Shown piece by piece: positions 1 to 46,383 of a DNA stretch of 64,000 nt. Under the pieces are notes generated by a model, which saw nothing but the letters and a program-made list of their open reading frames with translations, ran no database searches and had not been told where the DNA came from. This DNA comes from Pagrus major (lineage: Eukaryota; Chordata; Actinopteri; Spariformes; Sparidae). The DNA is taken from contig NC_133221.1 in the NCBI RefSeq assembly GCF_040436345.1, positions 22,578,665 to 22,642,664 of the forward strand, in the 5' to 3' direction. How positions within the stretch are numbered: position 1 is the first letter of the stretch; each line of letters begins with the position of its first letter. The position numbers and the translations under genes are program-made.

Positions 1-1583
1 GTCATTCAGCTCATTCAGACAGTGGAAGAGATTGATCTTTTTATCAGCATGACTGTTCTCTTCCTTAATCTTTTCTTTGATGTACTCAATAGTTTCCTTG
101 TTGATCTTCTTGTTATTTTCTTTCTCTTTCAGCAGCCCTTTCAGGAGTTCCTGGTTGCTCTCCAGGGAGAGGCCTAGCAGGAAGCGGAGAAATAGATCCC
201 AGTCTCCATGTTTGATCTCCAAAGCCTTGTTGACTGCTGTCTTGTAGAAGTCTAAGTGGCGCGCAACTTTCGAAAGGGGTTTGGTAAGCAGATTTTCACC
301 TTTGTCATTGAGTGTGTGAATGACATAAAAAGCTGCCAGGAACTCTTGAATGCTCAGATGGACGAAGCAGAAGAGTTTCTGTTCGCTCACTCCACAGCCT
401 TCTCGTTTGATCTGCGTGAATAATCCAGAGAAAACTGCAGCCTCAGTGATGTCAAGACCGCACTCTGTCAAGTCGTCTTCAGTGAAGAGAAGGTTTCCTT
501 CCTCGAGGCTCTCGAAGGCCAGTTTCCCCAGAGAAATGATTGTTTCCTGGTTCTTTTGATTCCAGCATGTCTCAGACCTCCCACCTGTGTCATCTCCAGG
601 ATACTTCACATTTGCCTGTCTGCATTGTAGCAAAAGGAAGTGTATGTACATGTCAGTCAGAGCCTTGGGCATCCTTCCTTCTTGTTCTCTGTCCATAAAG
701 TCCTCCAGGACTTTTGACGTGATCCAACAGAAGACAGGGATGTGACACATGATATTAATGCTTCTTGATTTTTTCACATATGACAAAATTTTCTCAGCCA
801 ACTCCTTGTCACTGAATCTCTTCCTGAAGTACTCTTCCTTCTGATCATCATTGAATCCTCGCACCTCTGTAACCCGGTCAACTGTACGAGCAGGGATACG
901 GTTGGATGCTGCGGGTCGTGAGGTGATCCAGATTTGAGCTTCAGAAAACAGATTTCCTTGGATGAGGTTTGTCAACAGAGCATTCACTGAGGCTGCCTCT
1001 CCAACATCTGTGTGAGAGGTACTTTTACTGAAGTCAAGATCAAGGCGACATTCATCAAAACCATCCAGGACAATCAGAATTCTGAACTTGTCATAGTCTG
1101 TTATTTCTGATGTCTTCATACCCGGAAAAAAGATGTTAATAAGTTCCTCCAAGCTGAGATTTTCCTCTTTTTTCAAATTCAGCTCCCGGAAAGAAAGAGG
1201 AAACATGTAATATATGTCCTCATTGGCCGTACCCTCAGCCCAGTCCAGCATGTACTTCATTGTAGCAAATGACTTTCCAATGCCTGCCACTCCGATCGTG
1301 AGCACGGTTCTGATGGGTCCATTTTCTCCAGATGCTGATTTGAAGATGTCCTGATATTTAATCAATGTTTCTTGTGTCTCTGGTTTGAACTTTGCATCTT
1401 GAACTTGTCTGGTCTCATGTTGTTCATTGACCTCTCCCCTCTCACCCTCTATGATGTAGAGATCTGTGTAGATCTCATTCAGAAGGGCAGAGGTTTTCTG
1501 CTTATCGATCCCCTCAGACACATGGGTTAATTGCTCCTTCAGCTGATTCCTGAGTTTCTGATGACTTCTAATGTAAGGCTTAC
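1..1583 (-). CDS. FISNA-NACHT exon (partial, runs off left edge)
   Basis: Begins after the acceptor CCCCACAG at 1583 with GT completing a codon (phase 1). It codes a FISNA segment (LLNEIYTDLYIIEGE, GEVNEQHE), then NACHT: Walker A GVAGIGKS, Walker B LIVLDGFDECR, sensor-1 region WITSRP, TEVRGF, and the following helical region. It is colinear with the exon at 51279-53070, with a 3-base gain near 250 and a 6-base loss near 577, both in frame, so the exon looks intact. Expected role is nucleotide-dependent oligomerisation of a cytosolic sensor. The final part of the exon and the LRRs are outside the window. An A-type module (3837-4562) lies directly upstream, and T plus GT makes a Cys codon at that join. 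Confidence 0.9.
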
Positions 1584-4500
1584 CTGTGGGGAAACAATTT
1601 TCAAAGTTATTAACAATATGGCGATTAAATGTTTTGGATGCAATCAAGCAGTTAATTAAATCTAAACCATAGCACCAAGAACTAAGTTTTTTTTGTTGTT
1701 TTTTTTTAAAATTTTGTATATGGTTTGTTTAGCTACATACAATTCAGCCAAAAGTCAAGCAGGTCATAAAACATCAGGAATCAGCTTGAGAAGAGCAGCA
1801 CTTGCTTCATTTTTGCTGTCCTCCCATTTTTCGGCTACGCTGATCAGCCAGAACATTTAAAGGACTAACAAGTGAAGTGAATAACACAGATTATCTCGTT
1901 CCAATGCAACATTCTGCCGTGAAACCTTAGGTTCTGACATTCATGTGGATGCAACTTGACACTCAGCACCCACCCACACACCATTGCAGACCAAGCACAC
2001 CTCCTCATGGTAACAACATTCCTGGATAGTGGTGACCTCCCCAGGAGGACAGTGTACCCTGCCACACTGCAAAAACTGCTGAGGAATGGCATCAGGAACA
2101 TGACAAAGAGCTCAAGGCATCAACCTGGGCTCCACATGTCCAGGATCTCAATATGATTGAGCATCTGTGGAACATGCTGGAACAGGTCCGATCCATGGAG
2201 GCCCCACCTCACAACCCACTGGACTCAAAGGATCTGCCGCCAACGCACTGGTGTCAGACACCACAGGACATCCAGAAGTTCTGTGTCTATGCCTCAATAG
2301 GTCAAGTCCGATCCACAGTGGGGCCTTGATGGATCGGACTGGTTCCTACGAGTGGGTGATTGGATTGGGATCTGGGAAATTTGGAGCACAGGTTAACACT
2401 TTTCGCTCTTTGCCTTGGTCCTTTTGCCATTCCTCAGCAGTTTGTGCTGCGTAGCAGTGCACATTGTCCTGCTGGGAAGCCACTTCCATCTGGGAGTGCC
2501 ATTACTTGTACTTGGTCGGCAACTGTGTTTTGGTGGGTGGTTCGTGACAAGTGGCATTCATTAGAAATCCATGACCCAAGTTTGTTCTGGTTGATCAGTG
2601 TCTTGGTTGTGAATCTAAACCAGAGTTTGTTTGGAATTGGGGCTGATCCGGGCATATTTGAGTGGATTGGTATTGGCTAAATAAAGCCGATCCTTACTTC
2701 CTCCTTACTGAACTCTACTTTTGCAGTGCTGTTCTTCATTATGACAGTCTAACGTGCCCTTTTAATTCTTTGCGAGTGAAAAGTGTGTGATTGACTCTTG
2801 GGTTCTGATGGTGCTGCTCACAAAATACACGTTATTTAAACTCAACGGCTAACAACGCTGTTATTTTTCCTTTTTCCTTCTGAACAGCAAAGAGCAGCTT
2901 TCAGGCAATAACGCCTCAACAGATCATTTTAGTTGTCACTGTCAATGTTAACTCTGTGAGAAACTTGGTAAAAGAACAAAATTCAACTTGTCTGTTGTCT
3001 GGTTATTTACTCTCTGCGAGCCAGTGTCTGTACTTGTCAGAGATGGTTTGTAAGAAAAGAAGCTCCTCTCGTAAACACCACTTTGTGATCATCTTATTCT
3101 CTCAGTAAAGTTTGAGCTCTTACCAAATCTGAAACTGGTCTTAAAAACTGATTAAACGTAAACTACTGGATTATAAATTATATTATACTGTCAATAAATG
3201 TTATTTAAGTTGGTGGTGCTTCACTGACATACTGTTAATTTAAAATATGCTTCTTTAAAGACATAAAGCTCCATTTAGTTCTGAGTGAACTCTCCTCTCA
3301 CTTTGAGAAATGTTCAGAAATTGTGTCAGTTTGTTTAAAACTAGGCTAATCTAAAACTATTTCAAAATGTGTAGTCATGAAGAACCAGCTTGGGTTATTT
3401 TGGTTTAAAGCCTGTGCTGCTTGCTCTACAGTGCTGGCAGAAGGTAAATGAATGATTTCAACTGTTATGAATTATATTGTTCTGTTGTTGTTAAACATGA
3501 AAAGTTGCACCACATGTGGTGATGACTGCCTTATGATTTATTTAAGACTAAAAAGTCAATGTTAAGAAATTGTACTAGACTTGTACTGTAAGCCTTGTTC
3601 CTCTCAAGTTAAGGGGTTGGATGAACATTAGGTCTTCATAGCATTCCAGTGCAGCACCATCTCCAACTTACAGCATACATTTGGTTTAATTAGACACCTC
3701 TCTGACATACTGTCTATGTTGGACGCTTCTCATTTTTTTTTCATGGTTCTATGTTTATGTTTCACAGCAGTTTAGAGCATTTGGATATGATTGGACCCTT
3801 ATTTATGACTACCTCCATCCACACCCATGAGCTTACATCGTATTTCTGTCGTCCTGTCGACACATGTATCAGGCAACTGTTTGGCAGCTGAATTTTGGGA
3901 GGTTATCCAGAGCCGGGCAGAAGGAAACAGCTCCCCTCGGATGAGGTTTGTCAGTAGCACATCTACTGAAGCTGGCTCTCTGGTGTCCGTCAAGATGTTA
4001 CAGTTGTCAAAGTCGAGAGGAGGTTGATAATCCTCCAGTCCATCCAAGACAAATACAACTTTGAACTGCTCATAGTTAGAAATCACACACTCCTTTGTTT
4101 CCTTGAAGAAATGCTCAAGAAGTCCCACCAAACTGACTTTTATCTCTTTTATCTTATTGAGCTCAGAGAAGTTCAGTGGAAATATCACTTCTTCATCAGC
4201 TTTGCTCCAAAGGGACTTAACCCAAGTTAAATATGACCCCTTGTCATTTTTAGCCCACTCTGTTTTGAATTCCTGCGCATGGAAGGATTTTCCAATTCCA
4301 GCTTCTCCGATAGTCAGCACAGTCCTGATTGTTTTTTCTTTTGTATCTTTGAAGATGTCAGATGTTGCATTCACTCGTGTCACAGATTTTGTCCCAGGAT
4401 GTTGATTTTTCTCTCCATTATCGACCTCATTACTTTTCTCCCCTCTGATGATGTGTTCTGTGTTTTGTTGGTTCAGATGATTTATGTTTTCATCTTCAGT

Positions 4501-7500
4501 GTTCTCACTAAGAAATCTTCTTCTCAGGGCTGATACCAGCTGCTGCCGTCGCTTCAATGTTTCTGGATAAACAGAATAAATTTCAGCACATTATTGATGA
4601 TGAAGGGTAGATGTAGTTACCTTTAAGTCAGCTAAAGTTATATATGATACAACACAGTGAACAAGTTGCACCACAACAAGAGTTTAAAGTTACCAGTGTT
4701 AAGAATCACGTCACTTTTATTGAAATACATAAATTCACTTTAGTAATGTTTATAAAATCTGTAGTAACATTGTTATATGTCATGGTTGCAACTTGTATAA
4801 TTTTCCAATCTAACAGAAAGAGTGACACAGAGCTTTGAAAATATGTTACTGTTATTGTTTCATACCTCGACATTCTGTCTGTTTCTGAATATATTTAGGG
4901 GGAATCTTCTCAACTCCTGAAGGTTGAGAGACGATCCAGAGACGAGCGGAGGGAAGCAACTTCCCCTTGATGAGGTTTGTTAGCAGCACATCCATCGAGG
5001 CTGGCTTGTGCATATCAGTCAGGTCCTCGTTCTTTTCAAAGTCCAGAGGAAGGTCACATTCTTCCAAACCATCAAGGACAAAAGCTACTTCACATTTGTT
5101 GTACTGGCAAGCTAATCTGTGCTTGTAGTCATTGAGGGGATAACGAAGCAGATCTGTCATGCTTTGATCTTTGTCTTTTCTTGAATTCAGCTCGCTGAAC
5201 TTCAATGACACTATCAGGTCTATGTTGTTGTTGGACTTTCCTTCTGCCCAGTCTACCATGAACCTCCTTGTTTGATGTGTTTTACCAACACGAGGAACTC
5301 CCTTCATTAGCACTGTTCGCACTGTCTTTTGCTCTGAATCGAGAAATAATCTATTATTAGTTTGTTTTGTAGCTTTGTTTTCTTCTCCTATCTCGTAGAG
5401 TTCTGTGTCAGTCTCATGTTTTCTCAGTTCCTCTTCATGCTGATGGCGGATTGTTGCCTTCAGGTCTGCTGTCAGTTCGTGTTTGAAGTCTTTGCCTAAA
5501 GAAATGATAAAGACATTATAGAGAAAACAGAGTACAGTGACTGCAAAAAACACAGTGTCACATTATGCATTTTGTTATACCAGCAGTTAAAGCCCAGAGA
5601 GGAAAATGGCACTAAAACACAAAATGTAAGTAGGAATTTGCAATGACATTAATTTTAGTTGAGTTTACGAAACATCTTCCATTAAAGTGATGTATGTCAT
5701 GGTTTCAGCTTTTACAGTATTTCCTAATCAACATCAACATCAAGAATGACACATGATACAGATCACATGATACATAATATGAGTTATGAGACTAAGTTAT
5801 TGTTATTGTTTCATACCTCGACATTCTGTCTGTTTCTGAATATATTTAGGGGGAATCTTATCCATTCCTGAAGGTTGAGAGACGATCCAGAGACGAGCGG
5901 AGGGAAGCAAATTCCCCTTGATGAGGTTTGTTAGCAGCACATCCATCGAGGCTGTCTGGTCCATATCAGTCAGGTCCTCGTTCTTTTCAAAGTCCAGAGG
6001 AAGTTTACATTCTTCCAAACCATCGAGCACAAAAGCTACTTCACATTTGTTGTACTGGCAAGCTAATCTGTGTTTTCTGTCATTGAGGGAATCACGAAGC
6101 AGATCTGTCATGTTTTGATCTTTGTCTTTTCTTGAATTCAGCTCGCTGAACTTCAATGACACTATCAGGTCTATGTTTTTGTTGGACTTTCCTTCTGCCC
6201 AGTCTACCATGAACCTCCTTGTTTGAAGTGTTTTACCAACATGAGGAACTCCCTTCATTAGCACTGTTCGCACTGTCTTTTGCTCTGAATCGAGAAATAA
6301 TGTATTATAAGTTTGTTTTGTAGCTTTGTTTTCTTCTCCCATCTCGTAGAGTTCTGTGTCAGTCTCATTTTTTCTCAGTTCCTCTTCATGCTGATGGCGG
6401 ATTGTTGCCTTCAGGTCTGCTGTCAGTTCATGTTTGAAGTCTTTGCCTAAAGAAATGATAAAGACATTATAGAGAAAACAGAGTACAGTGACTGCAAAAA
6501 ATACAGTGTCACATTATGCATTTTGTTATACCAGCAGTTAAAGCCCAGAGAGGAAAATGGCAGTAAAACAAAAAATGTAAGCAGGAATTTGCAATGACAT
6601 TAATTTTAGTTGAGTTTATGAAACATCTTCCATAAAAGTGATGTATGTCATGGTTTCAGCTTTTGCAGTATTTCCTAATCAACATCAACATCAAGAATGA
6701 CACGATACAGATCACACAATAGACTAAGTTATTGTTATTGTTTCATACCTCGACATTCTGTCTGTTTCTGAATATATTTAGGGGGAATCTTCTCAACTCC
6801 TGAAGGTTGAGAGACGATCCAGAGATGAGCGGAGGGAAGCAACTTCCCCTTGATGAGGTTTGTTAGCAGCACATCCATCGAGGCTGTCTGGTCCATATCA
6901 GTCAGGTCCTCTTTCTTTTCAAAGTCCAGAGGAAGGTCACATTCTTCCAAACCATCGAGCACAAAAGCTACTTCACATTTGTCGAACCTACAGTCGTCAA
7001 ACCTGCAAACTTCTGGGTGTTTATCATCATTGAGGAAATGACAAAACAGATCTTTCATGCTTTGAACTTCAGCTTTTCTTGAATTCAGCTCGCCAAACTT
7101 CAATGAAACTATCAACTTTATGTTCTTGTTGGACTTTCCTTTTGCCCAGTCTACCATGAACCTCCTTGTTTGAAGTGTTTTACCAACACCAGCAGCTCCT
7201 GTCATTAGCACTGTCTTTGTCCGTGACTTCTGAAATAATTCATCATAGGTTTGTACTTTATTTTCTTTGTTTTCTTCTCCTATGACGTAGAGTTCTGTGT
7301 CAGTCTCAAGTTTCTTCACTTCTTCTTCATGCTGACTGAGGATTCGTCTTTTCAGGTCTGCTGTGAGTTTGGGATTGAAGGCTTTCCCTAAAGAAACAAT
7401 AAAGACAATACAAACAGAGCAGAATGCAGTAATTTCAATAAGTGTCACATTCCTGAACAAATAAATGGCAAACATAAAAAAGTTTTGTCACGTGATGTTT

Positions 7501-10500
7501 TGTGTTGTTATACCTGCAATCAAAGTCGAGGGATTAAAAATGTATGAGAATAAAGAAATGTATCTATGAGTTTGCAATAAAGAAATAAGTGTTAAATATC
7601 TCTATATTCCAGCAGTAACCACTGTTACAAAGTGTTTGGTCAGTAACCATGTCTCTCCTCCTCTTGCTCATGCTGTGGAATAGAAAATAAATTTTCTGGT
7701 ATCCCTGCCCACTTCATCCAATCAGGATAGAGAACTCCATAAAGGGGCGGTCCTGTCTGCTTGTGAACACAGAGAGCAGGATCCTCCTGTTTGCTGCTCT
7801 GTCTGCTGATTAGCACTCTGCGTACATGTGGCGACGTAAAGAGAAGAGAGGGGATTGCTAACTGCAAAACAGACGTTCGCTAAACGATGAATTACAGCAG
7901 CTTTAAGCTGATAAAAGTTTCTGTGTTAGTTTACTGTAACCTTTGCTCGAGGTGTCCACACTGCTGGGCTTAGTGGTGTCTGTTTTCTGATCGGGTAAGC
8001 TTCAACACAAACACAAAACACTTATTACATATTTGTGTTAATAATATATTAGATAGTAGTAGTGCACATTGTCCTGCTGGGGAGGCCACTGCCATCGGCA
8101 TCCCCTCATCCTGCTGGTCTAATTTCAAAGTTATTTATTTTGTAAGTTATATTATAGTGTCAATAAGTGTTCTTTAAGTTGGTGGTGCTTCACTGACATA
8201 CTGTTAATTTGAAATATGCTTCTTTAAAGACATAAAGTTCCATTTAGTTCTGAGTGAACTCTCCTCTCACTTTGAGAAATGTTCAGAAATTGTGTCAGTT
8301 TGTTTAAAACTAGGCTAATCTAAAACTATTTCAAAATGTGTAGTCATGAAGAACCAGCTTGGGTTATTTTGGTTTAAAGCCTGTGCTGCTTGCTCTATAG
8401 TGCTGGCAGAAGGTAAATGAATGATTTCAACTGTTATGAATTATATTGTTCTGTTGTTGTTAAACATGAAAAGTTGCACCACATGTGGTGATGACTGCCT
8501 TATGATTTATTTAAGACTTAAAAGTCAATGTTAAGAAATTGTACTTGACTTGTACTGTAAGCCTTGTTCCTCTCATGCAAGTTAAGATGTTGGACGAACA
8601 TTATAAAGGTCTTCATAGCATTCCAGTGCAGCACCATCTCCAACTTACAGCATACATTTGGTTTAATTAGACACCTCTCTGACATGCTGTCTATGTTGGA
8701 CGCTTCTCATTTTTTTTTCATGGTTCTCTGTTTACATTTCACAGCAGTTTAGAGCATTTGGATATGATTGGACCCTTATTTATGACTACCTCCATCCACA
8801 CCCATGAGCTTACATCTTATTTCTGTCGTCCTGTCGACACATGTATCAGGCAACTGTTTGGCAGCTGAATGTTGGGTGGTTATCCAAAGCCGGGCAGAAG
8901 GAAACAGCTTCCCTCTGATGAGGTTTGTCAGTAGCACATCTACTGAAGCTGGCTCTCTGGTGTCAGTCAAGATGTTACAGTTGTCAAAGTCGAGAGGAGG
9001 TAGATAATCCTCCAGTCCATCCAAGACAAATACGACTTTGAACTGCTCATAGTTAGAAATCACACACTCCTTTGTTTCCTTGAAGAAACGCTCAAGAAGT
9101 CCCACTAAACTGACTTTTGTCTCTTTCATCTGATTGAGCTCAGAGAAGTCCAGTGGAAATATCACTTCTTCTTCAGCTTTGCTCCAAAGGGACGTTACTG
9201 AATTGACAAACCGAGTTAAAACCCTCTTGTCATTTTTAGCCCACTCTGTTTTGAATTTCTGCGCATGGAATGATTTTCCAATTCCAGCTTCTCCGATAGT
9301 CAGCACAGTCCTGATTGTTTTTTCTTTTGTATCTTTGAAGATGTCAGATGTTGCATTCACTCGTGTCACAGATTTTGCCACAGGACTTCCATTTTTCTCT
9401 CCATTATCGACCTCATTACTTTTCTCCTCTCTGATGATGTGTTCTGTGTTTTGTTGGTTCGGATGATCTTTGTTTTCAACTTCAGTGTTCTCACTAAGAA
9501 ATCTTCTTCTCAGGGCTGATACCAGCTGCTGCCGTCGCTTCAATGTTTCTGGATAAACAGAACAAATTTCAGCACATTATTGATGATGAAGGGTAGATGT
9601 AATCACCTTTAAGTCAGCTAAAGTTATTCATGATACAACACAGTGAACAAGTTACACCACAACAAGAGTTTAAAGTTACCAGTGTTAAGAATTATGTCAC
9701 TTTTGTTGAAACATAAATTCAGTTTAGTAATGTTCATAAAATCTGCAGTAACATTGTTATATGTCATGGTTGCAACTTACAGTATTTCCTACCCATAATT
9801 TTCCAATCTAACAGAAAGAGTGACACAGAGTTATGAGACTAAGTTATTGTTATTGTTTCATACCTCGACATTCTGTCTGTTTCTGAATATATTCAGAGGG
9901 AATCTTATCAACTCCTGAAGGTTGAGAGACGATCCAGAGACGAGCGGAGGGAAGCAAATTCCCCTTGATGAGGTTTGTTAGCAGCACATCCATCGAGGCT
10001 GGCTTGTGCATATCAGTCAGGTCCTCCTTTTTTTCAAAGTCCAGAGGAAGGTCACATTCTTCCAAACCATCAAGGACAAAAGCTACTTCACATTTGTTGT
10101 ACTGGCAAGCTAATCTGTGTTTTCTGTCATTGAGGGAATGACGAAGCAGATCTGTCATGCTTTGAACTTTTTCTTTTCTTGAATTCAGCTCGCTGAACTT
10201 CAATGACACTATCAGGTCTATGTTCTTGTCGGACTTTTCTTCTGCCCAGTCTACCATGAACCTCCTTGTTTGATGTGTTTTACCAACACGAGGAACTCCC
10301 TTCATTAGCACTGTTCGCACTGTCTTTTGCTCTGAATCGAGAAATAATGTATTATCAGTTTGTTTTTCATCTTTGTTTTCTTCTCCTATCTCGTAGAGTT
10401 CTGTGTCAGTCTCATGTTTTCTCAGTTCCTCTTCATGCTGATGGCGGATTGTTGCCTTCAGGTCTGCTGTCAGTTCATGTTTGAAGTCTTTGCCTAAAGA

Positions 10501-13500
10501 AATGATAAAGACATTATAGAGAAAACAGAGTACAGTGACTGCAAAAAATACAGTGTCACATTATGCATTTTGTTATACCAGCAGTTAAAGCCCAGAGAGG
10601 AAAATGGCAGTAATACACAAAATGTAAGTAGGAATTTGCAATGACATTAATTTTAGTTGAGTTTATGAAACATCTTCCATAAAAGTGATGTATGTCATGG
10701 TTTCAGCTTTTGCAGTATTTCCTGATCAACATCAACATCAGAAATGAAACATGATACAGATCACATGATACATAATATGAGTTATGAGACTAAGTTATTG
10801 TTATTGTTTCATACCTCGACATTCTGTCTGTTTCTGAATATATTCAGAGGGAATCTTCTCAACTCCTGAAGGTTGAGAGACGATCCAGAGATGAGCGGAG
10901 GGAAGCAAATTCCCCTTGATGAGGTTTGTTAGCAGCACATCCATCGAAGCTGGCTTGTTCATATCAGTCAGGTCCTCTTTCTTTTCAAAGTCCAGAGGAA
11001 GGTCACATTCTTCCAAACCATCGAGGACAAAAGCTATGCTACAGTCGTCAAACCTGCAAACTTCTGGGTGTTTATCATCATTGACGGAATAATGAAACAG
11101 ATCTTTCATGCTTTGAACTTCAGCTTTTCTTGAATTCAGCTCGCCAAACTTCAATGACACTATCAGGTCTATGTTGTTGTTGGACTTTCCTTCTGCCCAG
11201 TCTACCATGAACCTCCTTGTTTGAAGTGTTTTACCAACACCAGCAGCTCCTTTCATTAGCACTGTTCGCACTGTCTTTGTCAGTGACTTCTGAAATAATT
11301 CATCATAGGTTTGTACTTTATTTTCTTTGTTTTCTTTTCCTATATCGTAGAGTTCTGTGTCAGTCTTAAGTTTCTTCACTTCTTCTTCATGCTGACTGAG
11401 GATTCGTCTTTTCAGGTCTGCTGTGAGTTTGGGATTGACGGCTTTCCCTAAAGAAACAATAAAGACAATACAAACAGAGCAGAATGCAGTAATTTCAATA
11501 AATGTCACATTCCTAAACAATTAAATGGCAAACATAAAAAAGTTTTGTCACGTGATGTTTTGTGTTATACCTGCAATCAAAGTCGAGGGATTAAAAATGT
11601 ATGAGAATAAAGAAATGTATCTATGAGTTTGCAATAAAGAAATAAGCGTTAAATATCTCTATATTCCAGCAGCAACCACTGTTATAGAGTGTTTGGTCAG
11701 TAACCATGTCTCTCCTGCCCACTTCATCCAATCAGGATAGAGAACTCCATAAAGGGGCGGTCCTGTCTGCTTGTGAACACAGAGAGCAGGATCCTCCTGT
11801 TTGCTGCTCTGTCTGCTGATTAGCACTCTGCGTACATGTGGCGACGTAAAGAGAAGAGATGGGATTGCTAACTGCAAAACAGATGTTAGCTAAACGATGA
11901 ATTACAGCAGCTTTAAGCTGATAAAAGTTTCTGTGTTAGTTTACTGTAACCTTTGCTCGAGGTGTCCACACTGCTGGGCTTATTGGTGTCTGTTTTCTGA
12001 TCGGGTAAGCTTCAACACAAACACAAAACACTTATTACATATTTGTGTTAATAATATATTAGATAGTAGTAGTGCACATTGTCCTGCTGGGGAGGCCACT
12101 GCCATCGGCATCCCCTCATCCTGCTGGTCTAATTTCAAAGTTATTTATTTTGTAAGTTATATTATACTGTCAATAAGTGTTCTTTAAGTTGGCGGTGCTT
12201 CACTGACATACTGTTAATTTGAAATATGCTTCTTTAAAGACATAAAGCTCCATTTAGTTCTGAGTGAACTCTCCTCTCACTTTGAGAAATATTCAGAAAT
12301 TGTGTCAGTTTTTTTAAAACTAGGCTAATCTAAAACTATTTAAAACTGTAGTCATGAAGAGACTGTGTTAATTTGGTTTAAAGCCTGTGCTGCTTGCTCT
12401 AGTGCTGGCAGAAGGTAAATGAATGATTTCAACTGTATCATTATGAATTATATTGTTCTGTTGTTGTTAAACATGAAAAGCTGCACCACATGTGGTGATG
12501 ACTGCCTTATGATTTATTTAAGACTTAAAAGTCAATGTTAAGAAATTGTACTTGACTTGTACTGTAAGCCTTGTTCCTCTCATGTAAGTTAAGGGGTTGG
12601 ACGAACATTATAAAGGTCTTTATAGCATTCCAGTGCAGCACCATCTCCAACTTACAGCATACATTTGGTTTAATTAGACACCTCTCTGACATGCTGTCTA
12701 TGTTGGACGCTTCTCATTTTTTTTTCATGGTCTGTTTACATTTCACAGCAGTTTAGAGCATTTGGATATGATTGGACCCTTATTTATGACTACCTCCATC
12801 CACACCCATGAGCTTACATCTTATTTCTGTCGTCCTGTCGACACATGTATCAGGCAACTGTTTGGCAGCTGAAGGTTGGGAGGTTATCCAAAGCCGGGCA
12901 GAAGGAAACAGCTTCCCTCTGATGAGGTTTGTCAGTAGCACATCTACTGAAGCTGGCTCTCTGGTGTCAGTCAAGATGTTACAGTTGTCAAAGTCGAGAG
13001 GAGGTTGATAATCCTCCAGTCCATCCAAGACAAATACAACTTTGAACTGCTCATAGTTAGAAATCACACACTCCTTTGTTTCCTTGAAGAAACGCTCAAG
13101 AAGTCCCACTAAACTGACTTTTGTCTCTTTCATCTGATTGAGCTCAGAGAAGTCCAGTGGAAATATCACTTCTTCTTCAGCTTTGCTCCAAAAGGACATT
13201 ACTGAATTGAAAGCCTGAGTTAAATATGACCCCTTGTCATTTTTAGCCCACTCTGTTTTGAATTTCTGCGCATGGAAGGATTTTCCAATTCCAGCTTCTC
13301 CGATAGTCAGCACAGTTCTGATTGTTTTTTCTTTTGTATCTTTGAAGATGTCAGATGTTGCTTTCACTTGTGTCACAGATTTCTCTCCACTATCGACCTC
13401 ATTACTTTTCTCCTCTCTGATGATGTGTTCTGTGTTTTGTTGGTTCGGATGATCTTTGTTTTCAACTTCAGTGTTCTCACTACGAAACCTTTTTCTCAGG

Positions 13501-16500
13501 GCTGATACCAGCTGCTGCCGTCGCTTCAATGTTTCTGGATAAACAGAATAAATTTCAGCACATTATTGATGATGAAGGGTAGATGTAATCACCTTTAAGT
13601 CAGCTAAAGTTATTCATGATACAACACAGTGAACAAGTTGCACCACAACAAGAGTTAAAAGTTACCAGTGTTAAGAATTATGTCACTGTTGTTGAAACAC
13701 ATAAATTCAGTTTAGTAATGTTCATAAAATCTGCAGTAACATTGTTATATGTCATGGTTGCAACTTGTATAATTTTCCAATCTAACAGAAAGAGTGACAC
13801 AGAGTTTTGAAAATATGTTACTGTTATTGTTTCATACCTCGACATTCTGTCTGTTTCTGAATATATTTAGGGGGAATCTTCTCAACTCCTGAAGGTTGAG
13901 AGACGATCCAGAGACGAGCGGAGGGAAGCAAATTCCCCTTGATGAGGTTTGTTAGCAGCACATCCATCGAGGCTGGCTTGTGCATATCAGTCAGGTCCTC
14001 CTTTTTTTCAAAGTCCAGAGGAAGGTCACATTCTTCCAAACCATCAAGGACAAAAGCTACTTCACATTTGTTGTACTGGCAAGCTAATCTGTGTTTTCTG
14101 TCATTGAGGGAATGACGAAGCAGATCTGTCATGCTTTGAACTTTTTCTTTTCTTGGCAGCTCGCTGAACTTCAATGAAACTATCAAGTCTATGTTCTTGT
14201 TGGACTTTCCTTTTGCCCAGTCTACCATGAACCTCCTTGTTTGATGTGTTTTACCAACACCAGGAACTCCCGTCATTAGCACTGTTTGCACTTTCTCTGT
14301 CCGTGACTTCGGAAATAATCCATCATAGGTTTGTGTTTTTTTTTCTTTTCCCATCTTGTAGAGTTCTGTGTCAGTCTCAAGTTTACTCAGTTCCTCTTCA
14401 TGCTGATGGCGGATTGTTGCCTTCAGGTCTGCTGTCAGTTCATTTCTGAAGTCTTTGCCTAAAGAAATGATAAAGACATTATAGAGAAAACAGAGTACAG
14501 TGACTGCAAAAAATACAGTGTCACATTATGCATTTTGTTACACCAGCAGTTAAAGCCCAGAGAGGAAAATGGCAGTAAAACACAAAATGTAAGTAGGAAT
14601 TTGCAATGACATTAATTTTAGTTGAGTTTATGAAACATCTTCATTAAAGTGATGTATGTCATGGTTTCAGCTTTTGCAGTGTTTCCTGATCAACATCAAC
14701 ATCAAGAATGACACATGATACAGATCACACGATACATAATATGAGTTATGAGACTAAGTTATTGTTATTGTTTCATACCTCGACATTCTGTCTGTTTATG
14801 AATATATTTAGGGGGAATCTTATCAACCCCTGAAGGTTGAGAGATGATCCAGAGACGAGCGGAGGGAAGCAAATTCCCCTTGATGAGGTTTGTTAGCAGC
14901 ACATCCATCGAGGCTGGCTTGTGCATATCAGTCAGTTTATTTTTCTTTTCCTTTTTCATGTCCAGAGGAAGGTCACATTCCTCCAAACCATCAAGTACAA
15001 AAACTATCTTACATTTATCAAACTTGCAAACTTCTGGGTGTTCATCATCACTGAGGGAATAACGAAGCAGATCTTTCATGCTTTGAACTTCATCTTTTCT
15101 TGAATTCAGCTCGCTGAACTTCAATGACACTATCAGGTCTATGTTTTTGTTGGACTTTCCTTCTGCCCAGTCTACCATGAACCTCCTTGTTTGAAGTGTT
15201 TTACCAACACCAGCAGCTCCTTTCATTAGCACTGTTCGCACTGTCTTTGTCCGTGACTTCGGAAATAATTCATCATAGGTTTGTACTTTATTTTCTTTGT
15301 TTTCTTTTCCTATATTGTAAAGTTCTGTGTCAGTCTCAAGTTTCTTCACTTCTTCTTCATGCTGACTGAGGATTCGTCTTTTCAGGTCTGCTGTGAGTTT
15401 GGGATTGACGGCTTTCCCTAAAGAAACAATAAAGACAATACAAACAGAGCAGAATGCAGTAATTTCAATAAATGTCACATTCCTAAACAATTAAATGGCA
15501 AACATAAAAAAGTTTTGTCACGTGATGTTTTGTGTTATACCTGCAATCAAAGTCGAGGGATTAAAAATGTATGAGAATAAAGAAATGTATCTATGAGTTT
15601 GCAATAAAGAAATACGTGTTAAATATCTCTATATTCCAGCAGTAACCACTGTTACAAAGTGTTTGGTCAGTAACCATGTCTCTCCTCCTCTTGCTCATGC
15701 TGTGGAATAGGAAATTAATTTTCTAGTATCCCTGCCCACTTCATCCAATCAGGATAGAGAACTCTATAAAGGGGCGGTCCTGTCTGCTTGTGAACACACA
15801 CAGAGCAGGATCCTCCTGCTTGCTGCTCCGTCTGCTGATTAGCACTTAGTACATGTGGCGATGCAAAGAGGAGAGAGGGGATTGCTAACTGCAAAACAGA
15901 CGTTAGCTAAAACAATGAAAACGTTAACAGCAGCTTTAAGCTGACAAAAGTTTATGTGTTGCTTATTCTAACCTTTGCTCGAAGTGTCCACACTGCTGGG
16001 CTTAGTGGTGTCTGGATTCTGATCGGTTGCGCTTCAACACAAACACAAAACACAAATACATAAATACATGAGATACATTTACTCTAACAAAGATTTAAAT
16101 TATTCATGTTTGAGGTAATGTTTGAGGTGGCACAAACATCATGTCATTTCAAAACAAATAAAGTGTCTTTAATTCATGATGTAACTAATATGATGTATCA
16201 AAATAACACTAAATTAAAGTGCACATTTTGTACATAATGCCAGTACAATATTTAAACAAATAAATAAAATAAAGTGCCTTTTTGTGCATGATGACACTAA
16301 TAACATTTCAAACAACACTAAATAAAAGTGCACATTTTGTGCATAATGCCACTAGGATATTTTAAAAGAAATACATGCACTTTTGTGCAGGATGTCACAC
16401 AGGTAATTTAAAAAAACAGTAAAATAAAAATAAGCTGCATAATAGGAAATCAAATGGTGAAAATGAAAAGTTCACAGCTTTACTTTTGGTTTCTTCTGTA

Positions 16501-19500: not shown

Positions 19501-22500
19501 GAGGGGGTCGAGCTGTGCAATGGCTGTCTTTCTTAGCACTCTCTCCACAAACTTGACCCGTCTTTCCAGGGTTGAGCTCCGGAGCTGGAGACAGGAATCA
19601 CATGACTCAGGCACAGACAACGCTCTCCTGGTGTGGACAATCCCCAGGCAGACGGGAGACGCTTCGTGGAAGTCTTTCTCGTGCAGGGAGAAGCCACACC
19701 CCTGAGGACAGGGGCGAACAGAAGACTTTCCCTTTGCTCGCTTAGGCTCCGCGCTCATATCGAGACACAAAACCCAGAAAAGCAGACGAAATTAGCGCTC
19801 CGTGGGTAGCCAGCAGCTAACACCAACAGGGGCAGTTAAGCTAATTTCGAGCCGGCAGTAGCCACAACAAGACCAAGCTAACTAGCAGCAGCTGGTTAGC
19901 CTGACTCGGAAGAGGTGTTCTTAGCGAGGTGAACAGCGTAAGAACTGAGGGATGACTGTGGCGGTGCACGTATATATGTGCAGGCGGGGCCTCACATACG
20001 TCATCACAGATCATCTGCCGTAAAGGTGTGAATAGAGGTGTCTTCAGTCATGCCACGCGGGGGCGTGATATCCCATACTATATGTGTTTTACCGAGTGAA
20101 TTGACTGAAAGGGAGATTGAGTGATTTCACAAAAACAAAGTTTAAAATTTTTAACATCTGGGAAAAAAACTTTTTAGCTTCAATGCGAAAACTGCAGTAA
20201 AGTCTGATTACTCTGACAAGTCCTTCTCTAAGTTTTTGTCTTCTGCACTCTGAACCTATCAAACAAAGAACATGACCAAAATATCTTACCCTGGTTTTTC
20301 TTTACTGATGTTCTGAGGTTCACCCATGGACCCGTCACTTTTCATGGAAACATCGTTGGGTACAGAAGAGAATGATCTGTCTCCCTCACATGGACTGTAA
20401 GAAAGATTAGAATTAGAAACTTTTAAACATTAACACATTGTTTACATCTTTGTTATTGTTTTGAGGTGGAACTTCCAGTATTTATTTCACTATTTCAAAT
20501 ACATTCTCGTCAATTTATTTACTCTGTATCTGCCATCCAAGATAATTAAAATATCTTACCCTGATCCTTCTTTGCTGATGTTCTGAGGTTTACTCAACCT
20601 GTCACTTTCCACGGAAACATCGCTGGGTACAGCAGAGACTGCTCTTTCTTGGTCATACGGACTGTAAAACAGATTTAATATGTTTTAAAATTGACAAACC
20701 ATAACACTAGGGATGCACCAATTTATCAGCCTAACATCGGTATAAGCCGATATTTGCCTTGTTTACTGACATCAGCTTTTTGGCAAATAAGATGGCATTC
20801 ACCCACGTTAATCAGTTGTGTCTCATTCATTTTGCACTGGGTACATACGCTGTCCAAACCCATCTTCCCACAAAATGCTGAGCAATGTGCTGTGTGAAGT
20901 GTGAAAGAAAACGTCGGTGGTGTGGGAGTGTTACACTGTGAGAGACAGATCAGCGACTTGTAGTTTGCATGATATCCAGTGACCTTTCCTGACATGATCT
21001 CCTCCGTGAGAGCCCTGAGACGTCTTTTATATCCAGGCTGACACCAACCACAGTGTTAAAACAACAAAGATCACATTATCAGAGACTGTAAACAAATGCT
21101 TTTCTGTTACGGAGTCTGACCCCATATTGTGCATGGTGACGTCACTGGATCCCAGGCATAAGGACCGCTACTTTTACAAGGATGTGTTAAATGACACACA
21201 CAAGCAGCACTTGAAGCCAGCTGGTGGATAGGTCTGCTGCCACAGACGGAGATGTACAGACATGGGACGCACGCTAGAGAGAGCAGATCACCCACAATGG
21301 GCATGAAGGGACAGAGCCCGGTCCACTCAGCATGACATGTTTCAGGAGATTCTGGAGGAACACGGACCAGAAAGGCCAAGTAGGAAGGCATCACAGCAAT
21401 TTGATGGTTTTCTTACATATGTTATTGCTTTTCTGATCCCTTTACTTTTACATTTATTTACGTTCACACAAAAACAATGTTGTTGTCGGGCTATAAGTAC
21501 TGAAAAACTCTCCTGATTGAGTATATAGTTTGAATAGCGGGCTAGAAAGGCTTTTGAAGCAGTTATTTTTTATAAAGAGTCTTTTTCAAAGGTTGTTTCA
21601 TTCATATTTTATACATTTGTAGAATTGAATTTGTGCTTATTTGCAGTAAAGGGCTGAATGACTTTAAAACAGTTCAATTGTTCTGTTGTAAAGAGGATTT
21701 CTTATTTCCTTCAATTTATTTCCTCTGTATCAAAGCAAGAACATAACTAAAATAACTTACCTTGATTCTCCTTTACTGATGTTCTGAGGTTCACCCATGG
21801 ACCTGTCACTTTTCTCGGAAACATCGTTGGGTACAGCAGAGACTGATCTGTCTCCCTCACATGGACTGTAAGAAAGATTAGAATTAGAAACTTTTAAACA
21901 TTGTTTACATCTTTGTTATTGTTTTTGAGGTGGAACTTCCAGTATTTATTTCACTATTTCAAATACATTCTCATCAATTTATTTACTCTGTATCTACCAT
22001 CCAAGATAACTAAAATATCTTACCCTGATTCTCCTTTACTGATGTTCTGAGGTTCACCCAACCTGTCACTTTCCACGGAAACATCGCTGGGTACAGGAGA
22101 GACTGATCTGTCTTGGTCATACGGACTGTAAAACAGATTTAATATGTTTTAAAATTGACAAACCATAACACTAGGGATGCACCAATTTATCAGCCTAACA
22201 TCGGTATAAGCCGATATTTGCCTTGTTTACTGACATCAGCTTTTTGGCAAATAAGATGGCATTCACCCACGTTAATCAGTTGTGTCTCATTCATTTTGCA
22301 CTGGGTACATACGCTGTCCAAACCCATCTTCCCACAAAATGCTGAGCAATGTGCTGTGTGAAGTGTGAAAGAAAACGTCGGTGGTGTGGGAGTGTTACAC
22401 TGTGAGAGACAGATCAGCGACTTGTAGTTTGCATGATATCCAGTGACCTTTCCTGACATGATCTCCTCCGTGAGAGCCCTGAGACGTCTTTTATATCCAG

Positions 22501-25500
22501 GCTGACACCAACCACAGTGTTAAAACAACAAAGATCACATTATCAGAGACTGTAAACAAATGCTTTTCTGTTACGGAGTCTGACCCCATATTGTGCATGG
22601 TGACGTCACTGGATCCCAGGTATAAGGACCGCTACTTTTACAAGGATGTGTTAAATGACACACACAAGCAGCACTTGAAGCCAGCTGATGGATAGGTCTG
22701 CTGCCACAGACGGAGATGTACAGACATGGGACGCACGCTAGAGAGAGCAGATCACCCACAATGGGCATGAAGGGACAGAGCCCGGTCCACTCAGCATGAC
22801 ATGTTTCAGGAGATTCTGGAGGAACACGGACCAGAAAGGCCAAGTAGGAAGGCATCACAGCAATTTGATGGTTTTCTTACATATGTTATTGCTTTTCTGA
22901 TCCCTTTACTTTTACATTTATTTACGTTCACACAAAAACAATGTTGTTGTCGGGCTATAAGTACTGAAAAACTCTCCGGATTGAGTATATAGTTTGAATA
23001 GCGGGCTAGAAAGGCTTTTGAAGCAGTTATTTTTTATAAAGAGTCTTTTTCAAAGGTTGTTTCATTCATATTTTATACATTTGTAGAATTGAATTTGTGC
23101 TTATTTGCAGTAAAGGGCTGAATGACTTTAAAACAGTTCAATTGTTCTGTTGTAAAGAGGATTTCTTATTTCCTTCAATTTATTTCCTCTGTATCAAAGC
23201 AAGAACATAACTAAAATAACTTACCTTGATTCTCCTTTACTGATGTTCTGAGGTTCACCCATGGACCCGTCACTTTTCTCGGAAACATCGTTGGGTACAG
23301 CAGAGACTGATCTGTCTCCCTCACATGGACTGTAAGAAAGATTAGAATTAGAAACTTTTAAACATTGTTTACATCTTTGTTATTGTTTTTGAGGTGGAAC
23401 TTCCAGTATTTATTTCACTATTTCAAATACATTCTCATCAATTTATTTACTCTGTATCTACCATCCAAGATAACTAAAATATCTTACCCTGATTCTCCTT
23501 TACTGATGTTCTGAGGTTCACCCAACCTGTCACTTTCCACGGAAACATCGCTGGGTACAGGAGAGACTGATCTGTCTTGGTCATACGGACTGTAAAACAG
23601 ATTTAATATGTTTTAAAATTGACAAACCATAACACTAGGGATGCACCAATTTATCAGCCTAACATCGGTATAAGCCGATATGTGCCTTGTTTACTGACAT
23701 CAGCTTTTTGGCAAATAAGATGGCATTCACCCACGTTAATCAGTTGTGTCTCATTCATTTTGCACTGGATACATGCGCTGTCCAAACCCACCTTCCCACA
23801 AAATGCTGAGCAATGTACTGTGTGAAGTGTGGTTTGCTGTCAAACAAGAGTGAAAGAAAATGTTGGCGGCGTGAGAGTGTTACACTGTGAGAGACAGATC
23901 AGCGACTTGCAGTTTGCATGATAACCAGTAACCTTTCCTGACATGATCTCCTCCGTGAGAGCCCTGAGATGTCTTTTATACCCAGGCTGACACCAACCAC
24001 AGTGTTAAAACAACAAAGATCACATTATCAGAGACTGTAAACAAATGCTTTTCTGTTACGGAGTCTGATCCCATATTGTGCATGGTGACGTCACTGGATC
24101 CAAAGGTATAAGGACCGCTACTTTAACAAGGATGTTAAATGACACACACAAGCAGCACTTGAAGCCAGCTGATGGATAGGTCTGCTGCCACAGATGGAGA
24201 TGTACAGACATGGGACGCACGCTAGAGAGAGCAGATCACCCACAATGGGCATGAAGGGACAGAGCCCGGTCCACTCAGCATGACATGTTTGAGGAGATTC
24301 TGGAGGAACACGGACCAGAAAGGCCAAGTAGGAAGGCATCACAGCAATTTGATGGTTTTCTTACATATGTTATTGCTTTTCTGATCCCTTTACTTTCACA
24401 TTTATTTACGTTCACACAAAAACAATGTTGTTGTTGGGCTATAAGTACTGAAAAACTCTCCTGATTGAGTAGATAGTTTGAATAGCGGGCTAGAAAGGCT
24501 TTTGAAGCAGTTATTTTTTATAAAGAGTCTTTTTCAAAGGTTGTTTCATTCATATTTTATACATTTGTAGAATTGAATTTGTGCTTATTTGCAGTAAAGG
24601 GCTGAATGACTTTAAAACAGTTCAATTGTTCTGTTGTAAAGAGGATTTCTTATTTCCTTCAATTTATTTCCTCTGTATCAAAGCAAGAACATAACTAAAA
24701 TAACTTACCTTGATTCTCCTTTACTGATGTTCTGAGGTTCACCCATGGACCCGTCACTTTTCTTGGAAACATCGTTGGGTACAGGAGAGACTGATCTGTC
24801 TCCCTCACATGGACTGTAAGAAAGATTAGAATTAGAAACTTTCAAACATTATTTACATCTTTGTTATTGTTTTTGAGTCAGAACTCCCAGTATTTATTTC
24901 ACTATTTCAAATACATTCTCATCAGTTTATTTACTCTGTATCTACCATCCAAGATAATTAAAATATCTTACCCTGATTCTCCTTTACTGATGTTCTGAGG
25001 TTCACCCAACCTGTCACTTTCCACGGAAACATCGCTGGGTACAGGAGAGACTGCTGTTTCTTGGTCATACGGACTGTAAAACAGATTTAATATGTTTTCA
25101 AATTGACAAACCATAACACTAGGGGTGCACCAATTTATCAGCCTAACATCGGTAAAAGCCGATATGCGCCTTGTTTACTGACATCAGCTTTTTGGCAAAT
25201 AAGATGGCATTCACCCATGTTAATCAGTTGTGTCTCATTCATTTTTTAATCATTTTAACATTTTTATTGATATTTTTGAGGTGTAACTTCCAGTATTTCT
25301 ATCACTATTTCAAATACATTCTCATCTATTTAGTTCATTTGGATCAAACATCCAACATAACTAAAATAACTTACCTCGGTTGTCCCTTCCTGAAGTGGAG
25401 AGGTTCACCCATGGACCTGTCACTTCTCATGGAAACATTGCTGGGTACAGGAGAGACTGATCTGTCTCCCTCAAAGGGACTGTAAAACAGATTAGAATTA

Positions 25501-28500
25501 CCAATGTTTGAACACTTTTAACATCTTTATTGTTATTGTTGAGTAGGAACTTCCAGTATTTCTTTCACTATTTTAACGACATTCTTATCAATTGATTTTC
25601 TCTCTGTATCAAACATCCAACACAACTAAAAATATCTTACCCAATCGGACTGTAAGACAGATTTAATATGTTTTAAAATTGACAAACCATAACACTTTTA
25701 ACATCTTTAATGTTCATTTTGAACTTCAAGATAGTATCTACAGTTTATTTTCTCCTTTACTGTGAACCTCTCTGTATCAAAGTACCAACATAACTAAAAT
25801 ATCTTACCCCGGTTGTCCCTTCCTGAAGTGGAGAGGTTCACCCATGGACCTGTCACTTCTCATGGAAACATTGCTGGGTACAGGAGAGACTGATCTGTCT
25901 CCCTCACATGGACTGTAAGAAGATTAGAATTACAAACTTTCAAACATTGTTTACATCTTTATTGTTGTTTTTGAGGTGGAACTTCCAGTATTTCTGTCAC
26001 TATTTCAAATATATTCTCATCCATTGATTTACTCTGTATCAAACATCCAACATAACTAAAATATCTTACCCTGATTTTCCCTTCCTGAAGTGGAGAGGTT
26101 CACCCATGGACCTGTCACTTCTCATGGAAGCATTGCTGGGTACAGGAGAGACTGATCTGTCTTCCTCAAACGGACTGTTAGAAAGATTAGAATTACAAAC
26201 TTTCAAACATTGTTTACATCTTTATTGTTGTTTTTGAGGTGGAACTTCCAGTATTTATTTCACATTTTCAAATACATTCTCATCCATTTATTTACTCTGT
26301 ATCTACCATCCAAGATAATCAAAACATCTTACTCTGGTTCTTCTCTACTGAAGTCGAGAGGTTCACCCAACCTGTCACTTTCCATGGAACCAACGCTGGG
26401 TACAGGAGAGACTGCTCTTTCTTGGTCATACGGACTGTAAAACAGATTTAATATGTTTTAAAATTGACAAACCATAACACTAGGGGTGCACCAATTTATC
26501 AGCCTAACATCGGTAAAAGCCGATATGCGCCTTGTTTACTGACATCAGCTTTTTGGCAAATAAGATGGCATTCACCCATGTTAATCAGTTGTGTCTCATT
26601 CATTTTTTAATCATTTTAACATTTTTATTGATATTTTTGAGGTGTAACTTCCAGTATTTCTATCACTATTTCAAATACATTCTCATCTATTTAGTTCATT
26701 TGGATCAAACATCCAACATAACTAAAATAACTTACCCCGGTTGTCCCTTCCTGAAGTGGAGAGGTTCACCCATGGACCTGTCACTTCTCATGGAAACATT
26801 GCTGGGTACAGGAGAGACTGATCTGTCTCCCTCAAAGGGACTGTAAAACAGATTAGAATTACCAATGTTTGAACACTTTTAACATCTTTATTGTTATTGT
26901 TGAGTAGGAACTTCCAGTATTTCTTTCACTATTTTAACGACATTCTTATCAATTGATTTTCTCTCTGTATCAAACATCCAACACAACTAAAAATATCTTA
27001 CCCAATCGGACTGTAAGACAGATTTAATATGTTTTAAAATTGACAAACCATAACACTTTTAACATCTTTAATGTTCATTTTGAACTTCAAGATAGTATCT
27101 ACAGTTTATTTTCTCCTTTACTGTGAACCTCTCTGTATCAAAGTACCAACATAACTAAAATATCTTACCCCGGTTGTCCCTTCCTGAAGTGGAGAGGTTC
27201 ACCCATGGACCTGTCACTTCTCATGGAAACATTGCTGGGTACAGGAGAGACTGATCTGTCTCCCTCACATGGACTGTAAGAAGATTAGAATTACAAACTT
27301 TCAAACATTGTTTACATCTTTATTGTTGTTTTTGAGGTGGAACTTCCAGTAATTCTGTCACTATTTCAAATACATTCTCATCCATTGATTTACTCTGTAT
27401 CAAACATCCAACATAACTAAAATATCTTACCCTGATTTTCCCTTCCTGAAGTGGAGAGGTTCACCCATGGACCTGTCACTTCTCATGGAAACATTGCTGG
27501 GTACAGGAGAGACTGCTCTGTCTTCCTCAAACGGACTGTTAGAAAGATTAAAATTACCATTGTTTTAATACTTTTAACATCTTTATTGTTATTGTTGAGC
27601 TTCAAGATAGTATCTACAGTTTATTTTGTCCTTTACTGTGAACTTCTCTGTATCAAAGTACCAACATAAGTAAAATATCTTACCCTGGATCACCTTGAAC
27701 CCAGGGGCTGCTGGTCCTTACAGGTGTTGCCATCCTTGAACCACAAAAAAAGGAGATAATTAGGTCTCATAGTTTCATTTTCTGGAACTGAATTCATTGG
27801 CTTCATTAGCTCTTATTGTGGAAACAACACAGACACTATAAAGACAACGTGTCGTACAAAAATGATCAACAGTCGGGAACTAATTTTTCTGATACAGTCA
27901 AGTCAAAATGGCTAACATTAGACAGACTGATGTTAGATCTATGATATCTCATGTTTTTAGATTTAATATTACTGCTGCATTCATGTGCAATCAAGTGTCC
28001 TTTTAATGCTGTAGATGTTTAAGGTTCAGCTCAGTTTAACTACTGTATTTACTGTTGGCTAGTTTTATCCACAGTAATGTGTAAGATTATATAAGATCAT
28101 CATATGTTTGCAGCATGGCTGTCCTGTGAGAGCCATGTATCTGTAAAAAGTCAGAAGAACAGCCTGTTTTCAGCTTTGTGACGATGCTGATGTAAGAGGG
28201 TTTTTAGCTGAAGAAGGGGGGGCATTGAATGAATACTTCATCCTTCAGTTTATCGTTCAAAATAAACAAACCTGGAAATTCATGGCTTTCAATGGACAGG
28301 GAGGAGAGGAAAATAAATAAAATAAAATCTGAAACATAACTAGTAACTAAAGCTGTCAGACTAATGTTGTGGAGTAAAAAGTCAAATATTTGCCTCTGAG
28401 ATGTATTTGAGTAGAAGCATAAAGTAGCATAAAATGGAAATATTGGAGTAAAGTGAGTAAATGTATTATGTCGTATAATAATTATATTTATTGTACATTA

Positions 28501-45449: not shown

Positions 45450-45985
45450 TCAGTCAATCTCACACAAGGTCACAGAGCCATTCTTAAACCAGAAGCCTGG
45501 GAAGAGGGGCTCTGTGAATTTAGCCTTGAAAGTGTGTATGAGTCTCAGCTCTCCTGATGTGACACTGTAATATTTCAGAGTACCACCTTCCCAATCCAGA
45601 AACAATGCTATTTTTTCGCATTGGGGCACTTTTATACATTTTGGTTTGCCTTTTTGCTTCCCATGCAAGGGAAGCCATCCTTCCTTATGGCAGAGCAGAC
45701 TCCAGGACTTGTCATTGCATCCTAGACCACCACTACTGTCCCATTTTCGACCCACTCCTTTATACGCCACTGCGATGCCAACCTCCCCTTTCCACTCCAC
45801 CTCCCAGTAGCAGAAGCCTTTCTGGCCCTCCTCACAAAACACCTGACTCCTCTTAAACCTGCCCTCGTTTTCAGGTTGTGGCACCTTCTCCTCCACCTTC
45901 TTTACTGTTTTCACTCTCCTGTTTCCTTCGGACAGGACAAGTCTCTTGCTTGCTGTGTTTTCATCAAACTTCAGATCTGCACCAT
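45450..45985 (-). CDS. PRY-SPRY (B30.2) terminal exon
   Basis: 536 bases after the acceptor TTTCTCTATCAG, ending in TGA/TAA-type stop at 45450. The PRY part reads ADLKFDENTASKRLVLSEGN, then SPRY motifs CYWEVEWKGEVGIAVAYKGV, KSWSLLCHKEG, IALFLDWEGGTLKYYSV, and LFPGFWFKNGSVTLCE. Length and motif order are normal for a complete domain. Phase 1 entry fits the small exon at 47176. Confidence 0.92.
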
Positions 45986-46383
45986 CTGATAGAGAAACAA
46001 ATAACATATTTTAGTGTGTTAATGTGTGTTTACTGTTTTATGTGCATTTGAAATAAAATAAAATTAATAAAAGTATGTTTTATAAAATTAAATCCAAACA
46101 AAATCAATTAAAGATGAAATCTAGAGAAAAGTAAAATTGTTGAGTTGTTTGTAATTTTGAATTAGATTTGAAACCTTTTTATTATTTTACAAATATAATG
46201 ATCATGTACTGTAACAAATATCTAATGGTAAAAAGTGCAAACATGATAATCTATACTACCAGAGGAGTTTGGGAACGGATACATTCATTTTTAAATTCAT
46301 CAGGCTGTCTCGCCCTCCACTTTGAGGGCCAGATAGTGGCAGCCTCTCTCTCCTTTTCTTTCCCTCTCTCCCTTTTTCTCTCT

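Follow-up and report, generated by a model that had tools for sequence, protein, structure and literature searches.

The window, a stretch of 64,000 nucleotides from Pagrus major (NC_133221.1, positions 22,578,665 to 22,642,664 of the forward strand), lies in a 134-kb region in which three tandem NLR-C genes, here called gene 0, gene 1 and gene 2, were found on the minus strand. These genes have what characterizes the NLR-C family of fish, namely FISNA followed by NACHT and a winged helix with HD2, as matched in genes 1 and 2, N-terminal repeat exons, leucine-rich repeats (LRR), as matched in gene 2, and B30.2. In the family, single-exon repeats of ~30 aa mark groups 2-4, and a C-terminal B30.2 occurs in many members. 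Zebrafish NLR-C (NLR-B30.2) genes are reported to follow one common exon plan, with FISNA-NACHT-WHD-HD2 in a single exon, the largest, followed by LRR exons and a C-terminal B30.2 and preceded by N-terminal peptide repeats of one exon each (PMC4852459). The genes studied here are built likewise, but unlike in that account 3, 10 and 5 further exons coding for a nucleotide-binding domain (NBD) only, hereafter modules, precede the complete FISNA-NACHT exon of genes 0, 1 and 2, respectively. The uniform plan with one NACHT exon, a regularity of zebrafish and not a definition of the family, does not hold for them.

The ten minus-strand exons that the original prediction had placed at 3837-15417 of the window, in what is here gene 1, were recovered with exactly those limits. 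Each is 621-735 bases long, a length divisible by 3, flanked by AG and GT and free of stops, and each is of phase 1 to 1, as are 18/18 modules of the region. Fifteen modules are in the window, including five of gene 2 at 55317-61641, and the three of gene 0 lie about 22-24 kb below it; the modules of genes 0 and 2, the short converter exon C and a change at sensor 1 go beyond the original prediction. Two module families were distinguished, A (six copies, three of them in gene 1) and B (12 copies, seven in gene 1, with subtypes BI and BII), which are 36-40% identical to each other and likewise to the complete FISNA-NACHT exon of their own gene. In transcript order, gene 1 is arranged as the units C-BII-BI-A, C-BII-BI-A and C-BII-BI-BI-A, which diverge from one another by about 5-8%. 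In whole-genome searches, all modules among the candidates scored (type B: the best 150 of 322; type A: the best 145 of 316; more distant modules may thus exist elsewhere) were confined to one stretch of about 86 kb, and each listed match outside the locus was an open frame of at least 426 aa, like ordinary FISNA-NACHT exons. A module upstream of the complete exon was found in 0/20 ordinary NLR-C genes, over about 9.3-9.8 kb of upstream sequence (one stretch holding 154 N and one cut inside the exon); in the array genes the distance from the complete exon up to the first module is only about 2.2 kb. Readthrough past the donor, observed over 3799-15490 and 55279-61714, meets a stop within five codons in the B modules of the window (GMKQ, then the stop) and within about 13 in the A modules, so intron retention would yield short truncated proteins.

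Pfam NACHT matched 15/15 window modules with E values of 1.7e-24 to 1.2e-17 (six of the 15 being profile-scanned as slightly longer open frames), and together with the lack of stops described below this shows that the exons are no product of chance. The match stops at profile position 139-152 of 167. The half-NACHT originally described needs correction, since in its predicted structure the well-modelled module comprises the entire NBD with core strands 1-5 and is not an arbitrary half. The "FISNA-like lead" of the same description proved loose: Pfam FISNA matched 0/15 window modules (E cut-off 0.1 for six and 0.001 for nine), though the predicted structure of module B6 aligns with NLRP3 from residue 134 on. 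Both module types terminate at the identical residue, in TE[CI]R, and end at the NBD, so that HD1 is missing and so is the winged helix, sensor 2 included. In contrast to the NACHT of NLRP3 (PDB 7alv), they have no HD1, WHD or HD2 and carry Gln at sensor 1. This Gln was found in 18/18 modules, and Arg in 21/22 complete exons. Walker A, GxxxxGK[ST], is present in 18/18 modules; with the P-loop and the Walker-B aspartate kept, the modules probably bind nucleotide but, judged from sequence, would be unable to switch or to seed a ring alone. A single split FISNA-NACHT exon misread as a module was ruled out, since no HD1 half follows any module. Residues 249-598 of the gene 2 complete exon match only the three complete exons of the region (E <1e-3), and no orphan 3' NACHT half was found there at E <1e-3.

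Between the N-terminal repeats and the modules lies exon C, which is 59 nt long and of phase 2 to 1 in 6/6 copies. Since the N-repeats are of phase 2 to 2 (27/27) and the modules of phase 1 to 1, C serves as a frame converter. An in-silico join that began with exon 1 and ran as far as the complete exon was matched was open in genes 0, 1 and 2, at 1463, 3349 and 1987 aa; it omitted all sequence 3' of that match and a few short candidate exons picked by eye near 27.7 and 25.7 kb (gene 1) and 62.5 and 63.4 kb (gene 2). Joining without C gave 103, 227 and 140 stops, respectively, and when an inner C, the sole one tried of three, was inserted behind the first unit in gene 1, there were 145. The proposed succession of truncated NBDs ahead of a complete NACHT in one gene is thus borne out by an open frame in 3/3 genes, but not in its fixed number, since skipping a module of phase 1 to 1 keeps the frame and the DNA permits any number of them, none to ten in gene 1. 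All three inner C donors read AAG/gttaca and all three outer ones AAG/gttaga. Among all GT sites of the region, scored with a donor table, the inner donors stand at the 78th percentile, the outer at the 97th and those of the modules at the 97-98th. The weak inner donors would favour passing over inner C and joining A to BII directly.

The modules have the phase-1 acceptor and the donor position in common, which suggests a single origin of the module exon, as does the tree, in which A and B fall on one side and the three complete exons of the locus with 19 ordinary ones on the other (bipartition support 98; the root is drawn at the midpoint). The three own complete exons stand apart in this tree, with the ordinary exon L035 nearest, and an AG in phase 1 occurs at or near the homologous place in 19/19 ordinary complete exons. 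In the simplest history, the front part of a FISNA-NACHT exon would have been truncated once by a new splice donor at the NBD end; the resulting exon would then have split into A and B and multiplied as C-BII-BI-A units. Over the trees, about 90 substitutions in A and 343 in B give a neutral expectation of 3.75 and 14.65 stops, about 18 in all, and 0 were observed. Furthermore, gap lengths divisible by 3 were found in 14/14 exon gaps of the nucleotide alignment and in 0/6 gaps of the neighbouring introns (two sets). Between A and B, dN/dS is 0.39-0.48, with high dS; within groups the pairwise means are 0.93, 1.41 and 0.96 for the 15 window modules, and the codon-model omega over the 18 modules is 1.12 (A), 1.50 (BI), 1.20 (BII) and 1.30 (all B). 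Positive selection on the modules is not claimed, as these values of 1.12-1.50 are not significantly above 1. The modules are real, maintained and mutually compatible exons in three genes, in which readability is retained although the rate of amino-acid change is about that of silent sites.

The explanation favoured here, with moderate confidence, is that these are tandem NLR-C genes with a 5' array of bare-NBD exons, which would be spliced into the receptor to act there in cis as bait or brake. The mRNA would run from exon 1 through the N-repeats, the outer C, the modules and the complete FISNA-NACHT exon to LRR and B30.2; the frame is open up to the complete exon, and the modules would be spliced, wholly or partly, into this receptor message. 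NLRs work by ring assembly, with one NBD per chain. The protein predicted here would bear 3, 10 or 5 N-terminal NBDs without the sensor-1 arginine, HD1 and winged helix. As bait, these would offer copies of the NBD surface in cis to whatever targets or docks on NACHT; as brake, they would restrain the single switch-competent NACHT until displaced. Such a bait and brake role is the likeliest use of the extra NBDs and the most inferential part of the proposal, and the decoy or regulatory function ascribed to the P-loops in the original prediction is of the same inferential kind. The fast amino-acid change among recent copies fits a bait better than a scaffold. More tentatively, and at somewhat less than even confidence, a poly-NBD receptor may be envisaged that measures about 3,350 aa as far as HD2 and in which up to ten switch-dead NBDs stand before one live NACHT, the unit number is 3, 5 or 10, the converter exon locks the frame, and the extra domains act as NACHT baits or as a brake on ring assembly. 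If true, the locus would serve as a natural experiment in the licensing or blocking of ring assembly, with adjacent genes of 3, 5 and 10 units as a built-in dose series, and it would test whether copies of attacked domains are built into animal receptors, as they are in plants with integrated decoys.

Several observations weigh against this explanation. The module donors, at 2.9-3.3 bits, are below the exon-1 donors and 22 of 23 listed N-repeat donors, and a join skipping all modules is also open in 3/3 genes, at 805, 1149 and 875 aa. The three weak inner C donors probably share one ancestral change and so amount to one piece of evidence. Omega above 1 was not significant (2 x delta lnL of 3.3 for B, 2.5 for BI, 0.9 for BII and 0.2 for A, the null run with omega fixed at 1 being verified for the B set only), and constraint may instead be relaxed, with the frame maintained. 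The structure prediction of the A type was poor (pLDDT 59.7) and too weak for use. Loss of the sensor-1 Arg need not mean an inert domain, as the ordinary exon L028 has Thr there, and NLRP3 R351T retained 0.49 of wild-type IL-1beta release.

The strongest alternative, though an unlikely one, is cassette choice, in which the N-repeats would be spliced to a chosen C and the transcript would hold that unit with the downstream units, or that one only. The invariant length and phases of C and of the N-repeats speak for it, and so do the inner C exons, which stay open with the same acceptor sequence; the phase-2 acceptor of C cannot be joined in frame after an A module, as the broken frame of the tested inner C in gene 1 illustrates, so that entry into a unit would be frame-locked. 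Cassette choice is, however, hard to reconcile with donors that are weak in 3/3 inner and better in 3/3 outer copies of C, or with gene 0, whose single unit has no need of choice.

Somewhat less probable again is that the modules rarely or never reach the mature mRNA, being skipped and kept open by recent duplication or gene conversion and not by function. The frame that stays open without any module in all three genes, an omega of about 1 within recent groups and the moderate donors would all agree with skipping, but the missing 18 stops and the 14/14 exon gaps would not. In fact, A and B are both open with Walker motifs despite their low identity, which recent conversion between A and B cannot explain.

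That the units are small genes in their own right, each with a promoter and an NBD-only protein, is very improbable. This idea drew on an element of about 250 bases just downstream of each C, which resembles the sequence that follows exon 1 in gene 1, but the reading of this element as a promoter was dropped when a genome search showed it to be a dispersed repeat (of 40 copies scored among 1187 candidates, 32 are outside the locus, on many chromosomes). In an exact-pattern scan, the start exon MSEEQTEASSTL was found once per gene, three times in the 134 kb on the minus strand, and with no copy inside the module arrays. A Met before the P-loop is present in 0/6 A modules, and B modules have one two residues ahead of it in 12/12 cases but an earlier one in only 3/12. 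A start of its own for each module, raised with the original prediction as a point against it, is made unlikely by this single start exon per gene, by the A modules and by the open in-silico join. An assembly artefact stringing together unresolved tandem copies, which the likeness of the units and the 95.5% identity of gene 1 and gene 2 over 6.5 kb of their 3' parts might suggest, is equally remote given the differences among the gene 1 units, the module numbers that differ by gene, every gene having N-repeats, C and a complete exon of its own, and a 35-Mb contig with no N in the 134 kb.

In the literature searched, as far as its accessible parts go, no animal NLR with an array of this form was found; a precedent with two nucleotide-binding domains exists in plants. 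Rice Pib is reported to carry two NB-ARC domains, each interrupted by an intron 87 nt downstream of kinase 3a (PMC4917536). Pib is a smaller parallel, with plant NB-ARC instead of NACHT and one extra unit instead of 3-10, and its duplication presumably arose independently. Two NB-ARC domains are also reported for a wheat candidate NLR (PMC10027608) and for rice PibH8 (PMC12533315). The modular LRR exons of NLRP3 with their alternative splicing are similar in that exon modularity varies the number of domain units, but there the units are LRR and here whole NBDs (PMC6642158). Most FISNA-NACHT exons of round goby are reported to hold frameshifts or a large insertion, for which new introns are one reading (PMC6988351). 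A Xenopus gene prediction with NACHT domains from multiple NLRs is mentioned in the part available of PMC2268669; a multi-NACHT prediction is hence already in print, without, in that part, the anatomy described here.

Table 1. Features of the three NLR-C genes (window positions, or contig coordinates where prefixed C7)
Feature	Gene	Position	Strand	Remark
Exon 1	1	29260..29297	-	MSEEQTEASSTL; ends phase 2; identical exon once per gene
N-terminal repeat exons (15)	1	20290..27535	-	peptides of ~35 aa; phase 2 to 2
Outer C exon	1	15973..16031	-	59 nt, phase 2 to 1; between N-repeats and modules
NBD module B7 (BII)	1	14779..15417	-	
NBD module B6 (BI)	1	13838..14458	-	structure predicted
NBD module A3	1	12818..13534	-	
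Inner C exon	1	11951..12009	-	donor weakened (gttaca); out of frame after A module
NBD module B5 (BII)	1	10815..11447	-	
NBD module B4 (BI)	1	9864..10493	-	
NBD module A2	1	8814..9548	-	
Inner C exon	1	7941..7999	-	donor weakened (gttaca)
NBD module B3 (BII)	1	6749..7387	-	
NBD module B2 (BI)	1	5817..6446	-	
NBD module B1 (BI)	1	4866..5495	-	
NBD module A1	1	3837..4562	-	
Complete FISNA-NACHT-WHD-HD2 exon	1	1..1583	-	continues below window; 597 aa examined, no stop
N-terminal repeat exons (4/7)	2	62745..63995	-	rest beyond window
Outer C exon	2	62202..62260	-	
NBD module B10 (BII)	2	61012..61641	-	
NBD module A5	2	59963..60700	-	
Inner C exon	2	58419..58477	-	donor weakened (gttaca)
NBD module B9 (BII)	2	57297..57908	-	
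NBD module B8 (BI)	2	56346..56975	-	
NBD module A4	2	55317..56042	-	
Complete FISNA-NACHT-WHD-HD2 exon	2	51278..53070	-	3' end of exon not fixed
Open stretch with LRR exon	2	49117..49374	-	Pfam LRR_6
Open stretch with B30.2 exon	2	45453..46010	-	PRY-SPRY
NBD modules (3)	0	C7:22554216-22556826		
Complete exon	0	C7:22550267-22552060		

The complete exons of genes 1 and 2 matched FISNA (E 8.5e-23 and 8.4e-24), NACHT (E 1.5e-30 and 1e-31), NOD2_WH and NLRC4_HD2, and the acceptor is of phase 1 in both. Compared with 20 ordinary NLR-C exons from the same genome, the complete exon of gene 2 shows 41-54% identity over 78-244 residues. Each of the three genes has a B30.2 match; in gene 0 (L009, C7:22545215-22546006) this match is split in two, with about 180 bases between the pieces and a short repeated peptide at the edge, and may be broken there. 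Rfam gave no match within the window at the gathering threshold. A retroelement-like stretch lies at 16395-19791, between the N-repeats and the outer C of gene 1; it matches reverse transcriptase (PF00078, E 2e-19) and, below the cut-off, a BED finger, and its open frames overlap in different frames. The dispersed repeat of about 250 bases stands just downstream of 6/6 C exons and, in genes 1 and 2, also just downstream of exon 1, a gene 1 copy being at 15690-15975 with homologous stretches at each unit. Genes 0, 1 and 2 have 5, 15 and 7 N-repeat exons, and those of gene 1 are amplified over 20257-25245 as a unit of about 1464 bases.

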